Origin: a virus
IMG/VR virus record: IMGVR_UViG_3300021197_001868
Location: 1-21,433 of that record
Reading direction: 5' to 3' (one strand)
DNA: 21,433 nt
This document shows, piece after piece, positions 1 to 21,433 of this stretch. Numbering within the stretch: the stretch's first letter is position 1; each line of letters starts with the position of its first letter. A model generated the notes under the pieces. The model did not search any database. It was not told the DNA's origin and worked only from the letters and a program-made list of their open reading frames with translations. The position numbers and the translations under genes are program-made.

Positions 1-165
1 CTTAACGAATTAGTATCTACTATTAGCGACGATATAGTAAAAATTAAATTGCAAGAGGTAATTAGTAATATTGGACTTTTATCAAATAAAGAAAAAGTAA
101 ATGATGATACTTTAGCTCTATTAATGCAATACTATGAACTAATTAAAGAAATTAAACAAGCATGA
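1..165 (+). CDS. 3' end of an unidentified gene (partial)
   Basis: The frame is open from base 1 to a TGA at 163-165, giving 54 residues that end in LIKEIKQA. The fragment is Leu/Ile/Lys/Glu-rich and looks entirely helical, with no recognisable motif. Its stop overlaps the next start (ATGA), so it belongs to the same transcription unit as the head genes. In T4 the portal gene 20 comes before genes 67, 68 and 21, so this could be the portal C-terminus or a small core protein. That rests on position only; I do not recognise the residues. Confidence 0.6.
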   Translation, partial: LNELVSTISDDIVKIKLQEVISNIGLLSNKEKVNDDTLALLMQYYELIKEIKQA

Positions 166-395
166 AAAGAAGCGAGTTGAGATCTTTAGTACGAGAAGTA
201 CTTGACGAAATCTCCACTACAGGTACCGGAGCAACATTTACACCTGGTACAGGAGCTCAATACGCTACTCCCTATGCTTTTTCAAAAAATAAAAAAGATA
301 ATCGAGCAACAAAATTTTTAAAAAAGATAGGATATAAAAAGGCTGAAAGACCTAAACGTCCGTCACATACTAAATTATTCGACTACTTACAATGA
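162..395 (+). CDS. Small basic head-module protein with a capsid-like N-arm motif (77 aa)
   Basis: This is an unrecognised 77-residue protein between an unidentified gene end and the 422-residue gene, with ATGA overlaps at both ends. Residues 1-17 form a charged amphipathic helix (MKRSELRSLVREVLDEI). Residues 20-35 are a Gly/Thr-rich stretch, TGTGATFTPGTGAQYA, and the rest is Lys/Arg-rich, ending in TKLFDYLQ. The Gly/Thr stretch resembles residues 63-78 of the gp23 encoded downstream (TGTGGSFSAGAGEQWA, 9 of 16 identical). In both proteins it starts four residues after a Glu that fits a gp21-type cleavage site (LDE here, VAE in gp23). T4 gp67, a cleaved 80-residue prohead core protein, occupies about the same position but is acidic. 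A core or head-internal role is inference. Confidence 0.75.
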   Translation: MKRSELRSLVREVLDEISTTGTGATFTPGTGAQYATPYAFSKNKKDNRATKFLKKIGYKKAERPKRPSHTKLFDYLQ

Positions 396-1660
396 GAACA
401 CTTACAGAAAAATACAACGCAGTACTACTAGGTGAGTATAGTAAGAAGCAATTCGTTAGAGATGCCCGCCTTGCTCACCCAAACATTATAACTCAGTATA
501 ACGGATATGACGATACCGTAGCCATCCTTAAAAATAAGGGTATGGTATTTGAAGAATTAGAAAAGTACAAAGAGGAAAAGATGCCTGAGTACGATAACGG
601 AGTAGTTCCTGCTGACAAATTTTCTATAGAAGACATTGAAAGAGGAGTTGATTACGAATTAGAAAAGAAGGGCTTTAATACAGTACATAGAGACTTTACT
701 GAGGAAGATTATTTAAAAGCTAAGGACAAAGCTGTAAAGAACCTTGAAAAAAATAGAAAATACTATCTAAGTCTTTTGGCTGGAGAGTCTACAAGAGTTC
801 CTCAAAAAAGAGCAGACGTAATGAAGCCTGCAGAAGGAGATGGAGTAGATAAAGATAACGGAATGAAAAAGGCTCAATTAAAGGAAGCTAAAAGCAAAGG
901 CGGTAAAGTCGTAAAAGAAGACGACTACAGCAATGGTGGATACGTTGAAGTAATGGGTCCTAATTTAGATAAAGGTATTCGCTTAATACAGAAGGCCTGG
1001 GATGATTGGAAAGCCGGACCTATGACTGAACCCGGTATGATCGAACATGCTAAAAACGATCTTATAGACTATATATCCAACGAGCTTACTTTCTTCGACG
1101 AGCAAGACTCAGTAATGGAGACAGACAACCCAATTGAAGGTATCAGGTTTGAATTAAAAGAGTCTTTTAAAAAGCTTATCGTTAAAGTTTTAACTGAAGA
1201 CAAAAAAAAAGTTAACGAAAATATAAAAGGCACTGTAGACCTTACTAGCTACGAACCTGAAGTAGCTGACGAAATAAAAAAGGTAGACCCTACCATACAG
1301 AAAATAGACGTTGAACTTTCCCACAAAGAGGATGCTGAATTAGCACAAGCCGATATTATGGTAGTTCCTGGAGACATGGATGTTGAAGAATTACGCGACA
1401 AAACTATCGGTAACCCAAAAAGATTCTTTACAGACGGGCTAAGAAGATACTTTATTAATACATTAAAGAACGTAAACATAGATATAAGGGACGGTAACCT
1501 TTACATTTCATTTGACTTTTATGTAAATCCTTTTGCCGGTAAACAAGGTATGCAGGTAAGTCCCTCCTTTGCTGCGAAAATGAAAAGTGGAGACTACGGC
1601 AGATTAGATGAAAAAGACATGGAAAAGAAAGGATTCACTCTAGATGGTAAGGTACTTTAA
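392..1660 (+). CDS. Charged head-module protein, candidate prohead core component (422 aa)
   Basis: I cannot assign this 422-residue protein to a named family. It is hydrophilic and rich in Lys, Glu and Asp, with no signal peptide or membrane segment. Residues 1-55 look like a folded domain (MRTLTEKYNAVLLGEYSKKQ, then a NGYDDTVAILKNKGM segment). A Lys/Glu-rich middle of predicted helices follows, then a second conserved-looking block near residues 180-235 (GYVEVMGPNLDKGIRLIQKA, WDDWKAGPMTEPGM). The C-terminal third is more beta-like. It lies directly before the prohead protease, where T4 has core genes 67 and 68, and is coupled to it by TAATG. An assembly-core or head-internal role is a positional inference; the protein is much longer than T4 gp68 (about 141 residues). 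Confidence 0.8.
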   Translation: MRTLTEKYNAVLLGEYSKKQFVRDARLAHPNIITQYNGYDDTVAILKNKGMVFEELEKYKEEKMPEYDNGVVPADKFSIEDIERGVDYELEKKGFNTVHRDFTEEDYLKAKDKAVKNLEKNRKYYLSLLAGESTRVPQKRADVMKPAEGDGVDKDNGMKKAQLKEAKSKGGKVVKEDDYSNGGYVEVMGPNLDKGIRLIQKAWDDWKAGPMTEPGMIEHAKNDLIDYISNELTFFDEQDSVMETDNPIEGIRFELKESFKKLIVKVLTEDKKKVNENIKGTVDLTSYEPEVADEIKKVDPTIQKIDVELSHKEDAELAQADIMVVPGDMDVEELRDKTIGNPKRFFTDGLRRYFINTLKNVNIDIRDGNLYISFDFYVNPFAGKQGMQVSPSFAAKMKSGDYGRLDEKDMEKKGFTLDGKVL

Positions 1661-2271
1661 TGTCGAACTTAATTATTGATATAATACCTTTCAAGCCTAT
1701 CTCCACTCTTACCGAGAGTAAGACTAAACCAGGTATCTTTGAAGTAAAAGGTATTCTACAAAGAGCTGAAGCCGAGAATCAAAATGGTAGAGTATATAAA
1801 AGATCTATTTTAGAAAGAGAACTTAAGAAATATGCTCAAAACTTTATCGAAGTAGGTAATGCTTACGGCGAACTAGACCATCCAGACTCTCCTATTGTCT
1901 CCTTAAAAAATGCTTCTCATATAGTTAAAGAAGTATGGTGGAAGGGTAACGATGTAATGGGAACCGTTCAACTACTTAATACACCATCAGGTAATATAGT
2001 TAAAAATATTATTATGGACGGTCATACCATCGGTATTTCATCCAGAGGTACAGGTTCAGTACAGCAGACTAATGAAGGCCATTTAATGGTTCAAGACGAT
2101 TTTGAACTTGTATGTTGGGATTTCGTATCGAATCCTTCTACACATGGAGCTTTTATGGCTCCCGGTAGTTTAAATGAAGGAACTACAGCTAAGAAAGATA
2201 AGTATGCCAAAGTTCATTCTACCATTAGAGAGATACTATGTGCTACTACCTGTGAATGTAGTATAGATTGA
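1660..2271 (+). CDS. 21: Prohead core serine protease, gp21-like
   Basis: This 203-residue protein matches the T4 gp21 prohead protease family in length and motifs. The protease sits in the prohead core, is activated after shell assembly, degrades the scaffold and trims gp23. The likely catalytic His74 is in GELDHP and the catalytic Ser is in GISSRG (Ser127/Ser128), matching the T4 His85/Ser140 arrangement. The family's NxNGRxY start is visible at residues 40-46 (NQNGRVY), followed by the WWKGNDVMGTVQLL strand region and GHTIGISSRGTGSV. The start overlaps the preceding stop (TAATG), implying translational coupling. It is followed by a hairpin terminator and then by its likely substrates gp22 and gp23, the T4 order 21-22-23. 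Confidence 0.93.
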   Translation: MSNLIIDIIPFKPISTLTESKTKPGIFEVKGILQRAEAENQNGRVYKRSILERELKKYAQNFIEVGNAYGELDHPDSPIVSLKNASHIVKEVWWKGNDVMGTVQLLNTPSGNIVKNIIMDGHTIGISSRGTGSVQQTNEGHLMVQDDFELVCWDFVSNPSTHGAFMAPGSLNEGTTAKKDKYAKVHSTIREILCATTCECSID

Positions 2272-2388: not shown

Positions 2389-3483
2389 ATGGCAAATCAA
2401 GACTTACTTAAGCAAGCTATTGCTGAAGCTAAAGCTATTCGTGAAGCTGCTATATCCAACGCTAAAGACGTAATGGAAGAGTCCTTAACTCCCCATCTTA
2501 AAGACATGCTTGCAGCTAAGCTACAAGAAATGGAACATGACGAAGAGATGGAAGAAGGATCTTACGACAAAGACGAAATGGATGAAGCTATGCATGACGA
2601 TGACATGGATGAAGCTAAACATCACGATGATATGGATGAAGCGGAACATGACAAAGACATGGATGAAGCTAAGCATGACGACGATATGGACGAAGCTAAA
2701 CATGACGATGACATGGATGAAGTAGTAGCTGAAGAAGATGAAGAACCAGCAGAGGATGACGCAGAAGAATCTGAGGACGAAGCTGAGCATGAAGACGTGG
2801 ACGTTAAGGACATGGAAGTAGACGACCTAAAAGCACTCATAAAAGATATGATAGCGCAGGAACTCGAAGGACATGAAGACGAACTACACGGCGAAGACGA
2901 AATGGAAGATGAAGAAGGCGGAATGGAAGACATGGTCGCATCCGACGATGAAGAAATTAGCCTTGAAGAACTTCTTAAAGAACTAGAAACGTTAGGTGAG
3001 GAAGAAGTAGCTGAACAAGAAGTTGCTGAAGCCAAGCATGACGACGAAGATCATATGGAAGAAGGTAAGCACGAGGAAGAACATTCAATGGAAGAAGAAG
3101 TAAGTGAAGAAGTAGAGGAATCTACTGAATTACAAGAAGCTTTGGATACTGTTGAGACTCTTCGAAAAGAACTTTCAGAAGTAAATCTTCTCAATTCAAA
3201 ACTACTTTACGTAAACAAAATTTTTAAAGCTAATAGCCTATCTGAATCACAAAAAGTAAACATTATTGCTACTTTTGATAAAGCAGAAACAGTTAAAGAA
3301 GTAAAACTTGTATACGAAACAGTAGCAGAGAATATCCCCTCAGTTAAATCTGAAAAAACAAACCTCAAAGAGCATAAATCTTTCGCTTCCAAGGCAACTG
3401 GTAACTCTACAAAAGGAGATGTAATCTCTGAAGTAAGTGATCAAGTTCGTAGAATGCAAAGATTAGCTGGAATCATTAAATAA
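2389..3483 (+). CDS. 22: Prohead scaffold (core) protein, gp22-like, with acidic tandem repeats
   Basis: A 364-residue, extremely acidic protein sits between gp21 and gp23, the exact position of T4 gene 22, the scaffold on which the prohead assembles and which gp21 later digests. Residues 1-45 form an Ala/Lys/Glu-rich helix. Residues 64-108 are five tandem 9-residue units of the form MDEAKHDDD, with a decaying sixth. Residues 110-250 are nearly all Asp/Glu with scattered His. A coiled-coil-like helix covers about residues 245-310, and the C-terminus ends in VRRMQRLAGIIK, a basic tail typical of marine T4-like gp22 proteins. At 364 residues it is longer than T4 gp22 (269), mainly through the acidic repeats. 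No Shine-Dalgarno sequence precedes the ATG. Confidence 0.88.
   Translation: MANQDLLKQAIAEAKAIREAAISNAKDVMEESLTPHLKDMLAAKLQEMEHDEEMEEGSYDKDEMDEAMHDDDMDEAKHHDDMDEAEHDKDMDEAKHDDDMDEAKHDDDMDEVVAEEDEEPAEDDAEESEDEAEHEDVDVKDMEVDDLKALIKDMIAQELEGHEDELHGEDEMEDEEGGMEDMVASDDEEISLEELLKELETLGEEEVAEQEVAEAKHDDEDHMEEGKHEEEHSMEEEVSEEVEESTELQEALDTVETLRKELSEVNLLNSKLLYVNKIFKANSLSESQKVNIIATFDKAETVKEVKLVYETVAENIPSVKSEKTNLKEHKSFASKATGNSTKGDVISEVSDQVRRMQRLAGIIK
2578..2724 (+). repeat. 27-bp in-frame tandem repeat in the scaffold gene
   Basis: Five consecutive units encode MDEAMHDDD, MDEAKHHDD, MDEAEHDKD, MDEAKHDDD and MDEAKHDDD (residues 64-108), followed by a partial MDEV. The base-level unit is GATGAAGC plus a CATGACGATGAC-like segment. 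The low divergence suggests expansion by slippage or recombination. Whole-unit changes keep the reading frame. Confidence 0.9.
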
Positions 3484-3500
3484 TTTTATCCCTTAATACA

Positions 3501-5072
3501 ATGGAATTAAATAACTTATTAGAAGGCTCAAGCAGCAACTTCAAGATGTTACAAGAAGATGCAGCTAAGTTAGCCGACAAATGGACACAATCAGGACTTC
3601 TAGAAGGACTAGAAGGATCTGACAAAGGTACGATGGCTACTATCTTGGAAAACCAAGCTAAGCAAATCGTAGCCGAGCAATCAAATACAGGTACAGGTGG
3701 ATCTTTTTCTGCTGGTGCTGGCGAACAATGGGCAGGCGTTGCTTTACCATTAGTACGTAAAGTATTTGCTCAAATCGCAGCTAAAGACTTCGTCTCTGTA
3801 CAACCAATGAATCTACCTTCAGGTCTAGTATTTTACTTAGACTTCAAATACGGTTCATCTACAGCAGGATTCTCAAGCGGTGACAACATGTATGGAAACG
3901 TTTCTACAGCTAATAGCCAAATGGCTCCTGACGTAGATCCTTCAGGAGGCCTTTACGGTGCCGGACAGTTTGGTTACTCAATCAATTCTGCTTCTACTGC
4001 AGAAGCTAACGTAACCTATGGTGCAGCAACTTCTGCATCTATCGCATTCCAAGACGGAACACTTCCATCTAACTTCAAAACAGCTACTGTTAGTTTATCT
4101 GGTACTGGATTTGATGCAAAAGGTGTAAGAGCATTTAGATTTTTATCTAGCTCCGTTGACGTAACTTCTAACCCAGAACTAACTACTGTATCAGGTAATA
4201 ATGTAACTTTTGTACTTGCTACTTCTGGATTCGGTAACGCTACCGACGCTTCCGGATCAGTTGTTTATCACAAACAACCAGGTGACAACAGCCGAGGCGA
4301 CTTCGAAGATACTGCCGGAACTTTAAAAATTCCTGAAGTAAACGTAGAACTAGCTTCTGAAGCAATTGTTGCTAAGACTAGAAAACTTAAAGCTCAGTGG
4401 ACTCCAGAATTCGCTCAGGATCTTAACGCTTACCATAGTGTAGATGCTGAAGCTGAACTAACATCTATGCTTTCAGAGTACATCTCAATGGAAATCGATC
4501 TAGAAATTCTAGATATGCTTATCCAAGATGCTGCTTCTACTGAAAGATGGTCAGCTGAAAACAATAAGATTTGGGATGGTTCAAAGTGGATCACATCAAC
4601 TTCTGACTTCTACAATACTCAAGGTCAGTGGTTCCAAACTTTAGGTACTAAAATGCAAAAAGTATCTAACAAAATCCATCAGAAAACTCTACGCGGTGGT
4701 GCAAACTTCGCAGTAGTATCTCCAACTGTAGCAACTGTACTTGAGTCTATCCCAGGTTACGCTGCTTCAACTGACGGAGACAGAATGGACTTTGCAATGG
4801 GCGTACAGAGAGTAGGTTCTCTAAACAGCCGTTTCCAAGTTTACAAGAATCCTTACATGACTGAAAACGTAATGTTACTAGGTTACAGAGGTTCTCAATT
4901 CCTAGAAACAGGTGCTGTATATGCTCCTTATGTACCTCTGATGATGACTCCATTAGTGTACGATCCAGATACCTTTACACCACGTAAAGGTCTAATGACT
5001 CGTTACGCTAAGAAAATGATTCGTCCAGAATTCTACGGTAAGATCTTCGTATCTGATATGACTACTGTATAA
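3501..5072 (+). CDS. 23: Major capsid protein, gp23-like precursor
   Basis: This 523-residue protein is almost the length of T4 gp23 (521) and carries the family's hallmark central segment: VELASEAIVAKTRKLKAQWT, then PEFAQDLNAYHSVDAEAELT. The C-terminal segment MTRYAKKMIRPEFYGKIFVS is also typical. Residues 1-59 are a helical propeptide; a likely gp21 cut follows IVAE at Glu59, close to the T4 cut after residue 65. The mature N-arm then starts QSNTGTGGSF. Residues of about 150-265 are Ser/Thr/Gly-rich and beta-like, probably an insertion or decoration domain less conserved than the flanks. It lies 17 bases after gp22 with no promoter box between them, so the two are probably co-transcribed. 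A strong terminator follows. No Shine-Dalgarno sequence is visible. Confidence 0.95.
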   Translation: MELNNLLEGSSSNFKMLQEDAAKLADKWTQSGLLEGLEGSDKGTMATILENQAKQIVAEQSNTGTGGSFSAGAGEQWAGVALPLVRKVFAQIAAKDFVSVQPMNLPSGLVFYLDFKYGSSTAGFSSGDNMYGNVSTANSQMAPDVDPSGGLYGAGQFGYSINSASTAEANVTYGAATSASIAFQDGTLPSNFKTATVSLSGTGFDAKGVRAFRFLSSSVDVTSNPELTTVSGNNVTFVLATSGFGNATDASGSVVYHKQPGDNSRGDFEDTAGTLKIPEVNVELASEAIVAKTRKLKAQWTPEFAQDLNAYHSVDAEAELTSMLSEYISMEIDLEILDMLIQDAASTERWSAENNKIWDGSKWITSTSDFYNTQGQWFQTLGTKMQKVSNKIHQKTLRGGANFAVVSPTVATVLESIPGYAASTDGDRMDFAMGVQRVGSLNSRFQVYKNPYMTENVMLLGYRGSQFLETGAVYAPYVPLMMTPLVYDPDTFTPRKGLMTRYAKKMIRPEFYGKIFVSDMTTV

Positions 5073-7371: not shown

Positions 7372-7856
7372 TGATATTCGGGAGTACCAGAGATTTTGAC
7401 CTACTTACTAAAATAAACAGGGAATTACTTAAAGATATAGTTGAGCAGGAAATACTCTACTATAAGCTATCTCTTGAAGATACCGAAATAAATATTTATG
7501 GAGAGTCTCTGAGTAAAATTTTCTATACTCCTACTAAAGTTAATTGTTTAATTACTAGAGGAGACCAAGTAGTAAGTATAGATGATTTTGGTCCTGATTT
7601 AGGAAGAGAAGCATCGTTTGCATTTTTAAGAGAAGACCTATCCGATATCCAAGTAGTCCCAGAAGTCGGAGATATTGTACTTTGGCATGAAGATTATTAT
7701 GAAGTAGATACAGTAAGAGAGAATCAACTATTCTTAGGTAGAGATGATAGCTATAACTTTACTGAATACGGCTCACAATTTGGTAAGAGCATATCTATTA
7801 TAGTAGACTGTCACCTAACAAGAGGAGATAAAGTAGGAATAGCGGAGGTAGTATGA
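7371..7856 (+). CDS. 14: Probable neck protein, gp14-like
   Basis: This 161-residue protein follows gp13, as gene 14 does in T4. The N-terminal part (LLKDIVEQEILYYKLSLEDT, then EINIYGES) parallels the T4 gp14 start, where a helical segment leads into the Y-Y-V-P region and FGED. The central EASFAFLRED matches the position of T4's KAWKFAAYL, and PEVGDIVLWHEDYYEVDTVR matches T4's GDLIYFPMDNSLFEI, a beta segment typical of gp14. It is shorter than T4 gp14 (256 residues), lacking most of the C-terminal third. AGAGG six bases before the start could serve as a ribosome-binding site. The similarity is by pattern rather than high identity, so the call is moderate. Confidence 0.62.
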   Translation: MIFGSTRDFDLLTKINRELLKDIVEQEILYYKLSLEDTEINIYGESLSKIFYTPTKVNCLITRGDQVVSIDDFGPDLGREASFAFLREDLSDIQVVPEVGDIVLWHEDYYEVDTVRENQLFLGRDDSYNFTEYGSQFGKSISIIVDCHLTRGDKVGIAEVV

Positions 7857-8134
7857 GTAAAATAGATAAATTATATACTGAAGTAGATAGAAGAAACAGA
7901 GGAAAAATAGTTCCTACTGGATATGATCCTGAAACTCGTACTTTCTTTTCTAAAGTAGAATATACTCCTTTGAAGGATCTTCGTACTAATATGGGCGAAT
8001 TTGAAAAAGATTTTGAAAAAGCTATTAAACAGTATCCTGATGACTCTAAATTATTTGACTACCTACAGGCATTGAGAAAATTTAATAAAGGTTTACGTTC
8101 TCATATTACCCGGAACTATAAAGGGAGAGAATAA
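7853..8134 (+). CDS. Unidentified small charged protein in the neck operon (93 aa)
   Basis: A 93-residue hydrophilic protein of unknown family overlaps the gp14-like stop (ATGA) and the next start (TAATG). A clear GGAGG lies four bases upstream of the ATG. The sequence is mixed-charge and mostly helical in its second half (GEFEKDFEKAIKQYPDDSKL, FDYLQALRKFNKGLRSH). The segment KLFDYLQ also ends the 77-residue protein at 162-395, and the underlying bases are nearly the same in both places. No membrane segment, cysteine cluster or enzyme motif is seen. Its position suggests a neck or tail-joining role, without direct evidence. Confidence 0.8.
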   Translation: MSKIDKLYTEVDRRNRGKIVPTGYDPETRTFFSKVEYTPLKDLRTNMGEFEKDFEKAIKQYPDDSKLFDYLQALRKFNKGLRSHITRNYKGRE

Positions 8135-9350: not shown

Positions 9351-12300
9351 ATGGGTAGGTTAGACTGGAAGCAACTTAATAGGCATATTAGCGGTGGGGG
9401 CTCTTTTACCGGTTCGTTTAATATCTCCGGCTCTAGTACTTTTAGAGGAACACAATTTTTTACCGGTTCTTTAATCCCGGAGGTTACAGCTGAAAATGCT
9501 GGAATATATGATTTAGGTTCCCTTGCTACACCATGGAGAGATTTATACCTTAGTACTTCTTCCTTAAAGTTTATTAACGGAGGTACTGTACTATCTGAAC
9601 TTGGTGGTGAAAAAGATGGAGTACGGATAGGTAATATACTAATTACTACTTCATCTATATCTGTTGTAAAAGTAAACGGTAATGGTACTCCTGAGGTAGT
9701 AAAAGAGGTTATAAAAGCTACAGTATCAGCATCTGGTGACGTAATAGCTACTGAAGCTATTTTAGCACCACCCGGTACTGTATCCGGCTCAACCCAAATA
9801 ACCGCTTTAGGATTTATTTCTGAATCAACTGATAATCAAACTCTATCGTTTAATAATGCAAGTAAAGTACTAACTATATCTGAAGGAAATAATGTAGATC
9901 TTAGTACTCTAGGAGGCGGCGGTGGTGGCGGATCTTCTATTTGGTCAACTGGTTCTGACTTTTACAGAGTTTCATCAAACTTAAAAGTTACTGGTTCAGT
10001 AGACGCTACTTCAATAACCGGAGCTTTAGATTACTCTAATTTAGTAGGAATACCGACGTTAGTAAGCAGTTCAGCTCAAATTAGTTCTTTAGGATTCGTC
10101 ACTTCCTCTTCATCAGATTCAAGTAGTTTATTTGTTACTGCTTCGGCTAGTAATAACCGTATAACTTTTACAAAAGGAGATTCCTCTACTTTCACCGTTA
10201 CAGTAAATACAGGCTCATTTACTTTACCAGCTAATACAGTATCTTCTTCTGCTCAGATAACAGAACTTACTTCTCTACAAGCTAGTATAGATAGCTTGAC
10301 TACATCTACTAGTTCCTTTATTTCGACTGGATCTAATAACTTTATTGGTAACCAATCTATAGACGGTATTTTAGAAGTAACTGGTCAAGAAAATAAGATT
10401 CGTTTCCACTACAACGCTTTAGTAGACCTACCTAGTGCTAATACCTATCATGGTATGTTTGCTCATGTACATGCAACCGGAAAAGCTTATTATGCTCATG
10501 GTGGAGAATGGATTGAGCTTGCCAAAGCTAGTTCTTATGTATCCAATTCTATTACTGGATCATTTATTACTGCAGACCAAACTGGTTCATTTGTTATACC
10601 TGACGGTACTATTTCTTCATCTGCTCAAATATCAGCTTCAGCAGCAGCAAGTGGATTCGGAGCTGGGAGTACTGTAGCAGGTACTGTATCCTCCTCCGCT
10701 CAAGTAATTTCTAGTTTAGCAGGTTCAGGTATAATATCTGGTTCTGGTCAAATAGGCTTTAATACTGCAACGGTTGCTACAGCTTCACATGCCTTATTTG
10801 CTATTTCAGCATCCCATGAGATAGTTACTGAAGTTTCATCATCTCATGCTGTTTCGGCTGATACTGCATCTTTTATATCCTCTGCATTTTTGTCCTCTTC
10901 AATAGCTGAAAGTGGATTTAGCTTTGACAGTTCTCAACTACCTTCAGGAGTTATTTCTTCTTCAGTACAGCTACCTACCGGAGTAGTATCTTCATCAGCT
11001 CAATTACCTTCAGGACTTATATCTTCTTCAGCTCAAATCTCAGCTTCAGCAGCAGCCAGTGGATTTAGTAGTGCCGAATTACCAGCCGGAGTTATATCCT
11101 CTTCAGCTCAAGTTTCAGCATCTGCTGCAGCTAGTGGTTTCGGAGCAGGTGGTGGAGGTTCGGTAGCATTTGACGGAGATAAAATAGTTTCTAATACTCT
11201 TTTAGGAGATCTATATAGTAACAACTTTAATCCTGGTACAGACGGAACGATACAAGATTTTTTAAATGCTGTCTTTTTTCCTAATACTTCCCCAACTATA
11301 TCTACAGGTAATCAAGAAATAGTTGAGTTTTCTACCTCCGGTAGCTTAGTAGCAATACTAACTGGGTCAGATGCTGAGGGACAGGACTTTACTTTCGGTA
11401 CTTCAAGTCTCTATACAGCAGATTTCTTTAGAGTAGATACTGCCGGTTCGATGTCGCTAAATACTTTAGCTACCGCTTCTATGAATACTGTTAATAGAGG
11501 AGACGGAGAATTAGCACATCCCGTTATAGTTACGGCCACAGATACATTTAATGGAACGACTAGTAAAACTATTTACGTTAGAATAGATCCCAATACCGCT
11601 CCAGTATTTAGAGAAAGCTCTGTTGGCGGCTCTATAATTACCTCTTTTACTACTGCAAGAAATGAAAACGCTACCCCAGGAGAAGTAACTAAAATATACT
11701 TTACAGATGTTGACTCTGATGCAATAACTATTACTTCTAGTTCAATTGCCGGAGATGACTTTAGTATTACTAAGTATTCTACTTACGTTTCTATTGCTCA
11801 AGTTACTGCCTCTCTCGATTTCGAGACTACAAGTTCTTATAGCTTTAGTATTACAGCTTCTGATGAGCATAATGTAGCAGGAGTTGACGGTGATTCTTTT
11901 GCTACATTACCTATAACTATTAACGTAACCGATAACGTCATACCTACTATTAATAACCAGACTTTTACTGGATTTAGTGAAGATGAAAATGACGGAGATA
12001 GTAATAAAGATATTGCAGCTTCAGATCCAGAAGGAGATACTATAGTTTATACTAACTTTACGCTAGCTGGTTTAGCGTTAGATGGAACTCCTATTTCGAT
12101 AGGAACTTACTCAGGGACAAGTCAAAGTGATCCTGATGAAGATCCTTTTCAAATGAATAGTGCTGGTAGAATAACCAGAAAAGGTTCTCAATATATTAAT
12201 TCAGACTTAATTAATAGATACATCTACAGTGCTTCGGTATCTGATGTATTTAATTCAACTACTAATGCAGCAGCTATTACTCTAGATATAAGTGATGACG

Positions 12301-14771
12301 TAGCACCTTCTATATCAGCTAACGGTTCATTTTATATCATAGAATCAGCTCTTTCTAGTAATTTCTTAACTACTGCAACTTCAGGTATTGCAGGAACTAG
12401 AGCTGCCTTTACTGTAACTAATGGACAGTCGGTAACGTTTAGCGTTGCTCCAGCATTATTTAATATCAACAGTAGCGGTCAGATATCCCTAGCTAGTAAC
12501 GTTTCTGCTTCTTTCTTCGGAGGAGCTACCTTAACCGGTTCCGTTACTGCTTCTAATAGTTTTGGAACTACTGCTCAAACAACTTTTAACGTAAGTGTAA
12601 CTGATAATCAAGCTCCTAGTATAACTGCAACCCCTACTGCTGCTAATTTAAATACTAACAGTGCTAGACCTTCTACAGGAAATAACTTATATACTCTTTC
12701 TTTTAGCGATCCTGAAGGCGATGCAATAGTATTAGACAGCTTTACTTTCTCAGGAACTGCAGGACTAGGGCATTACATTAACGGGTCGAACGTATTCGTA
12801 AGTGCTAGTAGTAACTTAGCAGCAGGTAATTACGCATTCACAGCATCAATTTCAGATTCTGGTTCATTTGCTACTAATACCAATAAGACTGATTTTACTA
12901 TAGCTCAAGCAGGTATTGGTACTTTAGGAGGCGATACTACATCTCATATAATAGAATCTGCCGTTTCAGGAGCAGTATTGAGAGATGCATCTGGTTTTGG
13001 AGCAGGTAATACTTCCCAACTAACAGTATCTTATTCCCCACAATACGAATCAGCCGCTGTAGCTTCTTTTACTTCTTCAAATGCATCCATTGTAGTTGAT
13101 AATAGCGGTAATTTAACTTTAGCAGTTAATTTAAGCGGATCAGCAACAAGTTCTGGAGCAACTATTGGTACCGATATAACCTACAGAGATCAATTCGATA
13201 ATATAGGTAGTGGTTCGGTAACTGTTAACGTATTTGCTAACCAAGCACCTTCCGTAAGTGCTACAGATAATTCAGGAGTTCATAATACTAATCAGGCTGT
13301 AACTGGAGCAACTATTCAAAGTGTAACTATAAGTGATACTGAAAGTGACGTACCATTTGCAGTTAGTTTAACAGGAACAGATGCCTCTAAGTTTAATATA
13401 GTACCTCAAAATGCAAATACTTCTTCACTACTAATTACTGCAGCAGAAGATTTAGCTGGAGGAAGCTATAATTTTAATATAGTAGCAGTAGATAATTTTG
13501 ATGAATCTACTACTCAAGCAGAATCAGTGACGATTGTTTTTGCAGATATTGGAACCTTAACTGGAAATACTACTTCTCATATAATTGAATCAGCTATATC
13601 AGGTGCAGTACTTAGAAGCGCTACTGGGTTTAATAACGGGAGTGCGTCAGACCTTAATGTATCCTATTCTCCAAACTATGGTTCACAAGCTGTAGCAGCA
13701 TTTACCTCTTCTAATTCAGCAATAGCTGTTACTAATGCCGGAGCTTTGACTTTAGCAGTTAATTTAAGTGGTTCCGCTACCGGTTCTGGAGATAGTATAA
13801 CAAGTACTATTACTTATCGAGATCAATATGATAATATAGGAAGTGGATCTTTAACTGTTAACGTGTTTGCAAACCAATCTCCTTCCGCAACCTTTACAAA
13901 TCAGGTAGCTAATTTAACCGCATCTATTTCTGCTAATACAAATTTAGTATCAGTTACTATTGCAGATACAGAAACAGATACACCATTTTCAATGTCTCTA
14001 GCCGGACAGCATGCATCTTACTTAAAAGCAGTTCCTCAAAATTCAGTATCTTCATCTTACCAGATTCAAGCTGCTTCATCAATTACCTCTTCACTTAATT
14101 ACAGTGCTTCAATATTTGATAATTTTGATGAAACCAGAAACTATAATAGATCATTAGAAGTATTTGTACCGGTATTTTGGTATGCATTCTTAGATGAATC
14201 TGGAGCTTTTGCCGGAAATGAAACACAGGCTTTAAGTAGCTTTGGAGACGCAAACGATGACGGTACCACAGATAGTGGCACATTATTTGGACAAATTGCT
14301 GCCGGACAATTAGGTACAGGAACTATTACAACTAGTGCGTTTGCCGGACTAGGAGCTACAAAAGCTTACTTAATTGCAAGCGGAAGCAGTTTAGTCGGAG
14401 ATAGAACATCTACATTTATCGAAGCAGTCAACCATACTACCGGTTCTCAATCGGCAACTGGTATAGTAATAGTATTTCCTTCAGCATCTCAAGCCGGTAA
14501 CGGAACTTTCACCCTACCTACAGCTATGGCTACATCAGTAGGGGGTAGTGCAACCGGAGAATATGTATTATTCGCCGATAGGGTTGGTACTGGGGTATCG
14601 GATTCACCTCAATCGGCTTTTGTAAGGTACTTAGATTTTTCATCAGGAGTAACTTACCCAAATACAAGTATAGACAAATTTGGAGCTATTTTCTCCCAAG
14701 TAGATACAACAGCAGATATTAATTATTTCTTTATGGCGTCAAGTGGATCGGCTCCGTCATCAACACAGTAG
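9351..14771 (+). CDS. Giant fibre/adhesin with cadherin- and Ig-like repeats (1806 aa)
   Basis: A very long fibre protein, probably at the virion surface and used in host contact. The N-terminus (MGRLDWKQLNRHISGGGSFT) resembles the W-K-K starts of two other fibre genes here. A conserved AGIYDLGSLATPWRDLYL motif follows near residues 50-70, and seven glycines lie at 188-194. Roughly residues 235-600 hold about nine copies of SSSAQ-type motifs, three followed by ISASAAASGF-type repeats. From about 645 to 1610 it is a chain of cadherin/Ig-like domains with acidic loops (DPEGD, DTESD, DVDSD), probably Ca-binding. Residues 1189-1399 and 1400-1610 are a tandem duplication, with a more divergent third copy before them. 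The last 195 residues are a distinct domain starting near VFWYAFLDES, a likely receptor-binding tip. Confidence 0.88.
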   Translation: MGRLDWKQLNRHISGGGSFTGSFNISGSSTFRGTQFFTGSLIPEVTAENAGIYDLGSLATPWRDLYLSTSSLKFINGGTVLSELGGEKDGVRIGNILITTSSISVVKVNGNGTPEVVKEVIKATVSASGDVIATEAILAPPGTVSGSTQITALGFISESTDNQTLSFNNASKVLTISEGNNVDLSTLGGGGGGGSSIWSTGSDFYRVSSNLKVTGSVDATSITGALDYSNLVGIPTLVSSSAQISSLGFVTSSSSDSSSLFVTASASNNRITFTKGDSSTFTVTVNTGSFTLPANTVSSSAQITELTSLQASIDSLTTSTSSFISTGSNNFIGNQSIDGILEVTGQENKIRFHYNALVDLPSANTYHGMFAHVHATGKAYYAHGGEWIELAKASSYVSNSITGSFITADQTGSFVIPDGTISSSAQISASAAASGFGAGSTVAGTVSSSAQVISSLAGSGIISGSGQIGFNTATVATASHALFAISASHEIVTEVSSSHAVSADTASFISSAFLSSSIAESGFSFDSSQLPSGVISSSVQLPTGVVSSSAQLPSGLISSSAQISASAAASGFSSAELPAGVISSSAQVSASAAASGFGAGGGGSVAFDGDKIVSNTLLGDLYSNNFNPGTDGTIQDFLNAVFFPNTSPTISTGNQEIVEFSTSGSLVAILTGSDAEGQDFTFGTSSLYTADFFRVDTAGSMSLNTLATASMNTVNRGDGELAHPVIVTATDTFNGTTSKTIYVRIDPNTAPVFRESSVGGSIITSFTTARNENATPGEVTKIYFTDVDSDAITITSSSIAGDDFSITKYSTYVSIAQVTASLDFETTSSYSFSITASDEHNVAGVDGDSFATLPITINVTDNVIPTINNQTFTGFSEDENDGDSNKDIAASDPEGDTIVYTNFTLAGLALDGTPISIGTYSGTSQSDPDEDPFQMNSAGRITRKGSQYINSDLINRYIYSASVSDVFNSTTNAAAITLDISDDVAPSISANGSFYIIESALSSNFLTTATSGIAGTRAAFTVTNGQSVTFSVAPALFNINSSGQISLASNVSASFFGGATLTGSVTASNSFGTTAQTTFNVSVTDNQAPSITATPTAANLNTNSARPSTGNNLYTLSFSDPEGDAIVLDSFTFSGTAGLGHYINGSNVFVSASSNLAAGNYAFTASISDSGSFATNTNKTDFTIAQAGIGTLGGDTTSHIIESAVSGAVLRDASGFGAGNTSQLTVSYSPQYESAAVASFTSSNASIVVDNSGNLTLAVNLSGSATSSGATIGTDITYRDQFDNIGSGSVTVNVFANQAPSVSATDNSGVHNTNQAVTGATIQSVTISDTESDVPFAVSLTGTDASKFNIVPQNANTSSLLITAAEDLAGGSYNFNIVAVDNFDESTTQAESVTIVFADIGTLTGNTTSHIIESAISGAVLRSATGFNNGSASDLNVSYSPNYGSQAVAAFTSSNSAIAVTNAGALTLAVNLSGSATGSGDSITSTITYRDQYDNIGSGSLTVNVFANQSPSATFTNQVANLTASISANTNLVSVTIADTETDTPFSMSLAGQHASYLKAVPQNSVSSSYQIQAASSITSSLNYSASIFDNFDETRNYNRSLEVFVPVFWYAFLDESGAFAGNETQALSSFGDANDDGTTDSGTLFGQIAAGQLGTGTITTSAFAGLGATKAYLIASGSSLVGDRTSTFIEAVNHTTGSQSATGIVIVFPSASQAGNGTFTLPTAMATSVGGSATGEYVLFADRVGTGVSDSPQSAFVRYLDFSSGVTYPNTSIDKFGAIFSQVDTTADINYFFMASSGSAPSSTQ
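10600..11150 (+). repeat. SSSAQ / ISASAAASGF module repeats
   Basis: Within the giant fibre, near-identical units encode ISSSAQISASAAASGFGAG, ISSSAQISASAAASGFSS and ISSSAQVSASAAASGFGAG (near 10612, 11020 and 11095). Shorter copies such as VSSSAQLPSG lie between them. The related sequences VVSSSAQ and ISASAQL recur in the two long downstream fibres, so the element is shared across genes. Confidence 0.85.
12320..14180 (+). repeat. Tandem modules of about 211 residues in the giant fibre
   Basis: Two units, 12915-13547 and 13548-14180, align without gaps at an offset of exactly 633 bases. Each starts with IGTL and contains TTSHIIESA, LTLAVNLSGSAT, TYRDQ, DNIGSGS and TVNVFANQ. The first ~114 residues of the two are about three quarters identical by hand count, and the rest is clearly weaker. 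A more distant copy begins near 12320 (FYIIESAL, then DNQAPSITA). Confidence 0.88.
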
Positions 14772-18561: not shown

Positions 18562-21433
18562 ATGCCGAATTGGAAAAAACTCGTTACTAGTGGGTCAGAC
18601 GCTAGTTTAAATTCTTTAAATGCTGCACAACTAACTGCCTCCGGGCTTAACTATCCTAGCTCTGATGGTTCAGCAAACCATGTCTTACAAACTGACGGAG
18701 CCGGTAATCTTTCTTTTACTTCCGTAGGAGCGGCCAACCTTCCTGCCGGAGTAGTTTCAAGTTCTGCTCAAACTATATCAAATATTTTAAATAAAGATAT
18801 AGTTACTAATAGTTCTAGAGTAAACTCACATTTTCAACTAACAGATACCGGTTCAGGACATACTTATGCTATAGCGCTTGAAGGAAGTTCATTAAATTTC
18901 CATAGGAATATATCTCAAATAGATAGCCCTCTGGTATCATTCGGTCAAAACGGTAGTATTACAGGTTCAGATTCACTTCTTATCTCGGGTTCTACATCTT
19001 CATCATTAGTTTTAAGATCTCAAACTGCAAATAATGAAATTCTTTTTTACAATGTAGCCTCTGATATCGGCGGTACGTTTAAATATGACGGCTCAGATTT
19101 TATTTTAAAACCTAATCCTGAAAGAAATTACGTTTTTAGTACAAATGGGTTTAGTATAGGTCATGAGGGTCCTGTACAGACAGATCTCTATATAAATACA
19201 CATCACGGTGTCAGTCACGCTAACGGTAGACGACAAGCTTTTCTGATAGAATCAGGCAGTCATTCAGGCTCTGCAGGATCAGGAGAAACATTATTCCTTA
19301 TTAACAGTGACGGTACAGTAGGTATCGGTACAAGAGTTTCAAGTTCAGCTAAATTAGAAGTAGCCGGTACAGTATCAGCGTCTGCTTATATTGGAGACGG
19401 TTCTGGGTTGACAGGCGTAACTCTGTCTTCAGCTACCTCAGCTTCTTTTGCAACTAATGCTAATACAGCTACTTCTGCATCATCAGTTCCTCCTAGTAGC
19501 ATAGACCACGATGCTTTAGCTAATTTTGTAGCTAACGAACATATAGATCACAGTAGTGTTACTATTGGCAGCGGAAAAGGTTTAGATGGTGGGGGTACTA
19601 TAGAAGCTTCAAGAAGTTTAACTCTTAATACCGGTTCAACTCATTTTATCGACGGTACTGTTAGTGCCTTAAGTAATAAAGACGTAGATCTTGGTACCGG
19701 AGATATTACAGCAACCTCAAGTTCCTTTGATATAGTAGGTATTGGTACTTCTAGTCCTGGAGCTAAATTAGACGTCGTAGGCTCTACAAGATTCGGTAAC
19801 GTGTCTTCTAATAAACACGTATTTACTGGTTCGATGATTGTTTCTGGTTCAAGTACATTCGGAACCTCAGCTTCAGATAAACATATCTTTACCGGTTCAG
19901 TTATCATTTCCGGTTCCAGTACTCTAACTAATATTGGTCCTGTAAATTTCTTAGACGGTAATTTTAGTGTAGGGACTACAACAGCTACTGCTAGATTACA
20001 TGTCTCCGGTACTTTAGAAGATAATAGATTATTTCAAGTAGGAGACAGTTTTTTAGTGGTCTCTGGATCAAGCGGTAACGTGGGGATTGGTACTGATAGC
20101 CCTAGCCAGGCACTTCATGTAGATGGAAAAATAAGAGCTACAAGTTGGTTTACAGGAACTGACGATACAAATACCTTATTCTCTAGTACTTCAGCTGGTA
20201 CTATTTTACAAACACCAGGTTTAACTGCCGATAATAATAATTCGAAGATATTTTTCCGTCATAGCGGAGGTACAAATAAGTTTACATTTGATACTAATGC
20301 TGGTTCTTTAGGTATTGGTATTACTCCTACGGCAAGACTACATGTAGATGGAGATGCAATAGTTACCGGTAAAATAACAGCACAAGAATTTCATACCGAA
20401 TTTGTATCCGGTTCTATAATTTATACTTCCGGGTCAACTAAGTTCGGTGATACGTCCGATGATATACATTCATTTTCAGGTTCGTTAAGGGTATCAGGTT
20501 CCGGTAACCACTTCTTTACCGATGGTAACGTAGGTATTGGTACTACTAGTCCTGATCAACCTTTACACATAGTAGGGAATACTCTAAAACTAGAAAGCGA
20601 TGGTAGTAATGCCGCAGGTGCTGTATTAGAACTAAAGCATGCTAATAATAATTCCAGTGATGTTTGCGCTACAATTAACCTTACTAATAATGCTGGAGGT
20701 TTTGCAGCAATCGAAGGTGGAACAACCGCAGCTAACAACACCGGCTACATAGCATTTAAAACCGATAACGCAGGTACTCAAGGTGAGAGAATGCGTATTA
20801 TAGGAGACGGTAACGTAGGTATTGGTACTACTAGTCCTGGAACAGTTTTAGATATTCACGGAACTGGGAATGTACTACATGTAGGTACAGGTACAAATAC
20901 TTCTCAACATATGTCCTTCAGAGGTAGCGGGACTAGTGGTGCTTATATTGGATATGACGGGGTGGGAATGCTTTTACAACCAGGTGATGGTAAAAGATTT
21001 TTGATTAGAGGCGGCAATGCCACTTGGGGTAATGGAACAGTAGGATTATCAGTTGATACAAGCGGTAACGTAGGTATTGGTACTACTAGTCCTTCTGCCG
21101 TTCTTCATTTAGCTAAACCTAGTACCGAACAGGTACTAGCAATTAGTGGAAGTAACGGGTATAATGCTTCTCTATTCATGACTGCCGCCGGTAGCGGTAA
21201 AGATGCAAGAGTAGTAGTTGGTAATTCAAGATCGTTATTATTTGATACCACTACATCTCCAACTCCTTCCTCTACAGGTACTACTAAAATGGTACTTACA
21301 AACGCAGGTAACGTAGGTATTGGTACTACTAGTCCTTCCTTTGCTGCAGGTAGTGGTTTAGAAATAGAAAGAGCAGGAATAGCTACATTAAGGTTACAGA
21401 ATACAAGTACGGGAAAATCTACTGAAATAACCC
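18562..21433 (+). CDS. Long tail fibre-like protein, 3' end outside the window (>957 aa)
   Basis: I translated this frame by hand from the ATG at 18562 and found no stop to the window end, giving at least 957 residues. It starts MPNWKKLVTSGSDASLNSLN, matching the start of the 771-residue fibre. LPAGVVSSSAQ, GTVSASAYIGDGSGLTGV and LSNKDVDLGTGDITAT are modules shared with neighbouring fibres. Two FTGS-type units (KHVFTGSMIVSGSSTFG, KHIFTGSVIISGSS) lie near 19816-19920, and GSTKFGDTSDDIHSFSGSL is near 20434. GNVGIG(T)xSP repeats dominate from about 20074 on, four of them identical in bases. Such proteins often end in a self-cleaving chaperone domain, but that part would lie beyond the window. 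No Shine-Dalgarno sequence is visible. Confidence 0.88.
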   Translation, partial: MPNWKKLVTSGSDASLNSLNAAQLTASGLNYPSSDGSANHVLQTDGAGNLSFTSVGAANLPAGVVSSSAQTISNILNKDIVTNSSRVNSHFQLTDTGSGHTYAIALEGSSLNFHRNISQIDSPLVSFGQNGSITGSDSLLISGSTSSSLVLRSQTANNEILFYNVASDIGGTFKYDGSDFILKPNPERNYVFSTNGFSIGHEGPVQTDLYINTHHGVSHANGRRQAFLIESGSHSGSAGSGETLFLINSDGTVGIGTRVSSSAKLEVAGTVSASAYIGDGSGLTGVTLSSATSASFATNANTATSASSVPPSSIDHDALANFVANEHIDHSSVTIGSGKGLDGGGTIEASRSLTLNTGSTHFIDGTVSALSNKDVDLGTGDITATSSSFDIVGIGTSSPGAKLDVVGSTRFGNVSSNKHVFTGSMIVSGSSTFGTSASDKHIFTGSVIISGSSTLTNIGPVNFLDGNFSVGTTTATARLHVSGTLEDNRLFQVGDSFLVVSGSSGNVGIGTDSPSQALHVDGKIRATSWFTGTDDTNTLFSSTSAGTILQTPGLTADNNNSKIFFRHSGGTNKFTFDTNAGSLGIGITPTARLHVDGDAIVTGKITAQEFHTEFVSGSIIYTSGSTKFGDTSDDIHSFSGSLRVSGSGNHFFTDGNVGIGTTSPDQPLHIVGNTLKLESDGSNAAGAVLELKHANNNSSDVCATINLTNNAGGFAAIEGGTTAANNTGYIAFKTDNAGTQGERMRIIGDGNVGIGTTSPGTVLDIHGTGNVLHVGTGTNTSQHMSFRGSGTSGAYIGYDGVGMLLQPGDGKRFLIRGGNATWGNGTVGLSVDTSGNVGIGTTSPSAVLHLAKPSTEQVLAISGSNGYNASLFMTAAGSGKDARVVVGNSRSLLFDTTTSPTPSSTGTTKMVLTNAGNVGIGTTSPSFAAGSGLEIERAGIATLRLQNTSTGKSTEIT
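20524..21336 (+). repeat. Four base-identical 30-bp repeats encoding GNVGIGTTSP
   Basis: The same 30 bases, from GGTAACGTAGG to ACTAGTCCT, occur at 20524-20553, 20809-20838, 21064-21093 and 21307-21336 without a single difference that I can find. Spacings are 285, 255 and 243 bases, all multiples of three. Flanking codons differ. A degenerate copy (GNVGIGTDSP) lies near 20074. Confidence 0.93.

Follow-up and report, generated by a model that had tools for sequence, protein, structure and literature searches.

Genes of the head module and layout of the small protein

The window, meaning the whole 21,433-base stretch of a virus record that was analysed, represents the head module of a phage related to T4; its features are listed in Table 1. 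The gene under study encodes a 77-residue small head protein whose open reading frame (162–395) reads MKRSELRSLVREVLDE up to and including E16 and continues as ISTTGTGATFTPGTGAQYATP..., with residues 18–35 corresponding to window positions 213–266. ATGA overlaps on both sides join the small gene to its neighbours, referred to here as proteins x and y. Downstream of gp23 lie PhoH and then a head–tail adaptor. No family match was obtained for the acidic scaffold.

Table 1 Features of the window that bear on the small head protein.
Feature	Position	Strand	Basis
Protein x, conserved, C-terminal end	1..165	+	Directly upstream in 278/280 testable loci; overlaps small gene by ATGA
Small head protein, 77 aa, full CDS with stop	162..395	+	ORF; orthologs in 281 loci; pN/pS 0.04–0.22
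Residues 1–16, a probable propeptide; amphipathic helix with LxE at its end, resembling the T4 capsid-targeting sequence (CTS)	162..209	+	Low-confidence AF2 model; alignment; PMC9026906
L14-D15-E16, predicted gp21 cleavage motif L/I-x-E	201..209	+	159/159 orthologs; PMC9026906
Residues 17–35, mimic of the gp23 N-fist region (ISTTGTGATFTPGTGAQYA)	210..266	+	Alignment, whole-genome search, cross-genome covariation
Residues 36–77, basic tail, conserved TPxAF, GYK, RPKRPSHTKxFDYL	267..392	+	Alignment; charge
Protein y, conserved, between small gene and gp21	392..1660	+	Directly downstream in 274 loci; start overlaps small-gene stop (ATGA)
gp21-like prohead protease	1660..2271	+	PF03420, E 1e-33; phrog_207
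Acidic scaffold, resembling gp22 in position and composition	2389..3483	+	Gene order and sequence
Major capsid protein gp23	3501..5072	+	PF07068, E 2e-81; phrog_138
gp23 V57-A58-E59, predicted cleavage motif	3669..3677	+	E59 invariant in 26 homologs; position of T4 cut at E65
gp23 residues 60–78, N-fist region (QSNTGTGGSFSAGAGEQWA)	3678..3734	+	Homology with N-terminus of T4 gp23*

The small protein matched no Pfam family and no solved structure. Its AF2 model, of low confidence (pLDDT 60), contains a helix at residues 3–19; the gp23 model reached a pLDDT of 44, and both were too poor for docking. The predicted mature part, residues 17–77, is basic, with a net charge of +10. A gp23 paralog or gp24 vertex protein of the HK97 fold was considered and rejected in view of the length of 77 residues, the missing Pfam match and the single gp23-family gene found in each genome of the relatives.

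Several minor features of the window were recorded. The N-terminus of protein y (window 392–436), MRTLTEKYNAVLLGE..., forms a short helix with a possible L/I-x-E end; its Glu varies in relatives (EGK, EGN), so that a targeting role for this N-terminus is doubtful as well as conceivable. A very large Ser/Thr-rich protein of 1,806 residues (9351–14771) and a second one of over 957 residues that is open at the window end (18562–21432) both carry repeated GTGS/ISSSAQ units and are probably virion fibre or neck proteins. The string KLFDYLQ is common to the small protein and a 93-residue protein (7853–8134), and this was put down to chance because it is not conserved in relatives.

Distribution and conservation of the family

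Of 50,697 phage records searched by tblastn, Flavobacterium phage immuto alone contained the full protein. The ortholog there (QQO92116, annotated as a hypothetical protein) is 52% identical and has the same neighbours, but it is a short form without FTPGxGAQYA, and the immuto gp23 arm is of the non-F type described below. Relatives in IMG/VR number in the hundreds, four queries giving 348, 423, 148 and 177 matches in overlapping sets. Among 281 loci the two neighbours are kept as given in Table 1, and gp21 lies within 2.5 kb downstream of the small gene in 180. A family profile was run against 13 large records of relatives and located an ortholog at the head module of each, Microcystis phage Mel-JY01 (E 2e-4) and the 484-kb LR756508 (E 3e-6) being among them; it found none in T4, S-RIM8, RM378, LR756511 or AG-345-F15.

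The small gene is under strong purifying selection. Against near relatives pS was 0.23–0.85 and pN/pS 0.04–0.22, and across residues 17–40 pN was zero among the five closest relatives at a pS of 0.3–0.6. No variation was seen at M1, E16 or K59 across 36 aligned small proteins, nor at E59 across 26 aligned gp23 sequences. [LIMV]xE, which is a loose pattern, stands ahead of the motif in each of 159 distinct small-protein sequences.

Some variant architectures were also observed. Four loci (L076, L091, L145 and L310) encode small proteins of 115–123 residues in which the TPxAF...GY part of the tail is repeated, as if duplicated, and another (L434) has a unit of LDE followed by ISATGAGEAYQTPNAF embedded in a longer protein, preceded by about 60–75 additional residues. 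The helix MKxSxLxxLIKEVLxE recurs at the N-terminus of several otherwise unrelated proteins (L330–L338, L342–L345), in some of them followed by LxE, and could be a targeting module common to head cargo. In L331 and L332 the helix is followed by STTxAPNNxPGGLxQYAT, whose PGxxAQYAT-like stretch resembles the mimic, is present whatever the gp23 type and likely belongs to another domain. PGGLAQYAT is carried by some proteins of DUF5661-like appearance. Its likeness to the mimic was taken as coincidence, because PGGLAQYAT also occurs in a genome (G018) whose small protein is of the short type.

Correspondence with the N-fist region of gp23

In T4, gp21 cuts after L/I-x-E (PMC9026906) and removes 65 residues of gp23 (PMC9958956, PMC7136217, PMC9026906). 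The first 25 residues of the resulting gp23* form the N-fist, which clamps four subunits, two of its own capsomer and two of a neighbouring capsomer (PMC9958956, PMC7136217). The region is disordered inside the prohead (PMC9958956), shifts to the outer surface upon expansion, and is disordered in the five portal-facing subunits (PMC9958956, PMC7136217).

BLASTP aligned residues 6–35 of the small protein with gp23 residues 49–78 without gaps, with 12 of 30 positions identical (E 3e-6); from I17/Q60 onward, 10 of 19 are identical. The ungapped match of residues 14–35 to gp23 57–78 proposed in the sequence-only reading was thereby confirmed in coordinates and residues, as was its placement of the putative cleavage Glu in the same register in both proteins (E16 and E59, each invariant in the alignments). 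Its likeness to the mature N-terminal stretch of gp23 held as well, with the label "N-arm" refined to N-fist, which comprises the 25 residues ahead of the N-arm proper (PMC9958956, PMC7136217). Like the T4 N-fist (gp23* residues 66–91), the gp23 stretch that the small protein repeats starts right after the gp21 site, at the homologous place in gp23; the letters differ from those of T4, however, and no T4 head-module protein repeats T4's own N-fist. No comparable arm copy was found in the head modules of T4, S-RIM8 and AG-345-F15.

To assess the specificity of the match, all 1,274 ORFs of 40 residues or more in the complete 167-kb genome of one relative (G001) were searched. The gp23 arm scored 136 against itself, 51 against the small protein and 38 against the next ORF, the highest score of shuffled arm queries being 40; the reverse search with the small protein gave 141, 52 and 34. 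The two proteins are thus each other's best match and the sole one above shuffled queries. A 29-residue site peptide searched against 19 records of relatives likewise matched only the small protein and gp23. The motif, whose occurrence in other proteins of related phages had been raised as a possibility, was found in none of them in these searches, and a general tag on many proteins was rejected on the same whole-genome searches. The pairing is also seen in a distant phage (L370), whose small protein reads TGTGASFSPGQGEQYA where its gp23 reads TGTGASFAAGQGEQWA. In the short-form genomes G017 and immuto the likeness of the small protein to gp23 was not above chance.

The presence of the mimic follows the type of the gp23 arm. 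F-type arms (TGTGGSFSAGAGEQW and the like) pair with a small protein bearing [ST]FTPGxGAQYA, and non-F arms (TGTGAIGATASGNEQW and the like) with the short small protein (AVGGYQTP); the two were concordant in 87 of 92 genomes and discordant in five. On a tree of gp23 minus the arm from these 92 genomes, five supported independent switch pairs all ran in the same direction with none contrary (sign test 0.06), the pairs of an earlier 80-genome set standing at 3:0. Pagel's dependent model was preferred over the independent one (LR 37.6, 4 df, p 1.4e-7, 92 genomes) in a fit made with our own script, a kind of test that can be overconfident with few switches.

Distances gave a similar result. In the 80 genomes the distance in the mimic correlated with that in the gp23 arm after the rest of gp23 was removed (partial r 0.64, 0/999 permutations) and after the rest of the small protein was removed as well (partial r 0.60, 0/999 permutations). 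When 174 gp23 windows were ranked by correlation with the mimic, every one of the top eight overlapped the arm. The firm claim is limited to the binary switch, which has few events and accounts for most of the covariation, because the distance correlation vanished among F-type genomes alone (0.07, 166/999 permutations). Residue-by-residue covariation was not seen overall within F-type genomes; two positions exceeded permutation, namely GxG (p 0.006) and the residue before W/Y (p 0.0002), in a test that ignores kinship. Codon identity at the shared residues was 39.7% with the genome's own gp23 and 39.0% with foreign gp23. Recent gene conversion thus left no sign here, and the match does not seem to be maintained by it.

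Proposed role and alternative explanations

Our favoured reading, of moderate confidence, is that the small protein is a basic component of the head with a targeting propeptide of the T4 type, that gp21 would remove this propeptide, and that the N-terminus so exposed would dock in N-fist sockets. We infer targeting, cutting and docking from the T4 features of gp21, the N-fist and the internal proteins, together with the predicted helix and the basic remainder. The first 16 residues would act as a targeting helix like the T4 capsid-targeting sequences and carry the protein into the prohead core, where gp21 would cut after E16, at the conserved LxE site. The new N-terminus, ISTTGTGATFTPGTGAQYA, resembles that of mature gp23, and upon expansion it may fold into those N-fist sockets of the shell that lack a gp23 arm, while the basic tail may hold DNA, the portal or a neighbouring protein. 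By analogy with T4, the site would most plausibly be around the portal vertex. Since each relative has a single gp23-family gene, no gp24 is recognisable; the portal would then be the only vertex lacking gp23, and the surrounding sockets would be the most likely location. A more specific form, in which a second gene product, cut by the same protease as the capsid protein, is a dedicated arm mimic that fills the N-fist sockets at the portal, seals or anchors the symmetry-mismatched vertex and is selected to match its own capsid arm, is considered doubtful.

The T4 internal proteins are the nearest known counterparts. These are basic proteins whose N-terminal targeting sequence is removed by gp21 (PMC9026906); IPI–IPIII with their CTS are small, carry a propeptide of 10–19 residues ending in L/I-x-E, are targeted to the core and are cut by gp21 (PMC9026906). 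The small protein shares with them a short probable propeptide ending in [LIMV]xE and a basic mature part, its own targeting and cutting being predicted. It differs in that the internal proteins carry no capsid-arm copy as far as described, whereas its mature N-terminus matches gp23 and follows the gp23 type. The suggestion in the sequence-only reading that the protein is cut together with gp23 and imitates its arm agrees with the LxE kept in every relative, the confinement of the motif and its dependence on arm type, and it is retained here as a prediction.

Alternatively, the small protein could be a plain internal protein of the T4 kind, which its N-terminal helix targets, gp21 cuts and the head packages together with DNA. 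This would account for the basic mature part and the short propeptide ending in LxE, and the arm-like stretch would be no more than an extended context preferred by the protease after the scissile Glu, which would by itself drive the match to gp23. We consider this rather unlikely, keeping it in view because both matches begin exactly at the cut; the match, however, extends about 19 residues beyond the cut, past the usual reach of protease subsites, T4 gp21 has few determinants beyond L/I-X-E (PMC9026906), and the stretch occurs in no other protein of a whole genome although the scaffold must be cut too. Another explanation is that the protein belongs to the core or scaffold, takes the place of T4 gp67/gp68 and is degraded or lost at maturation, its stretch letting the core hold gp23 during assembly in competition with the gp23 arms. 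The gene does lie between portal and prohead protease, as in immuto, where T4 encodes gp67 (PIP), gp68 and other core proteins, but the order here is 20-x-small-y-21, with x and y intervening unlike in T4. The equivalence to gp67 suggested earlier from gene position was abandoned: the family profile is empty in the T4 genome and the sequences do not match, the net charge of gp67 is strongly acidic at −25 and that of the small protein +10, and gp67 is degraded to peptides (PMC9958956). In T4 the N-fist stretch has no ordered structure until the prohead expands, and a site of this sort is not known from earlier stages (PMC9958956). A core role of this kind appears improbable.

The likeness might also be a functionless remnant of an old duplication or recombination of gp23 arm code into the small gene, with co-distribution reflecting the shared history of a gene block. 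The two genes are within 3.3 kb of each other, close enough for joint exchange, and independent switches are few. Against this stand the correlation that persists after removal of the rest of both proteins, the arm's rank as best of the 174 windows, the absent codon-level similarity and the pN of zero in the mimic of the closest relatives, and we regard such a remnant as very improbable.

Small head proteins cut by a gp21-type protease are already known from T4; copying the mature end of the capsid protein, and following it in evolution, is new, no report of it having been found in the open PMC library, which holds open-access papers only. Docking as proposed would explain how the lattice of the shell copes with sockets for which a capsid arm is missing. 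The family, a ready test system, occurs in hundreds of aquatic phages and has a cultured member in Flavobacterium phage immuto. Outside the arm, the gp23 region best correlated with the mimic was at about residues 272–297 (4314–4391), GTLKIPEVNVELASEAIVAKTRKLK, with a partial r of 0.39, and this stretch could be part of the acceptor site.
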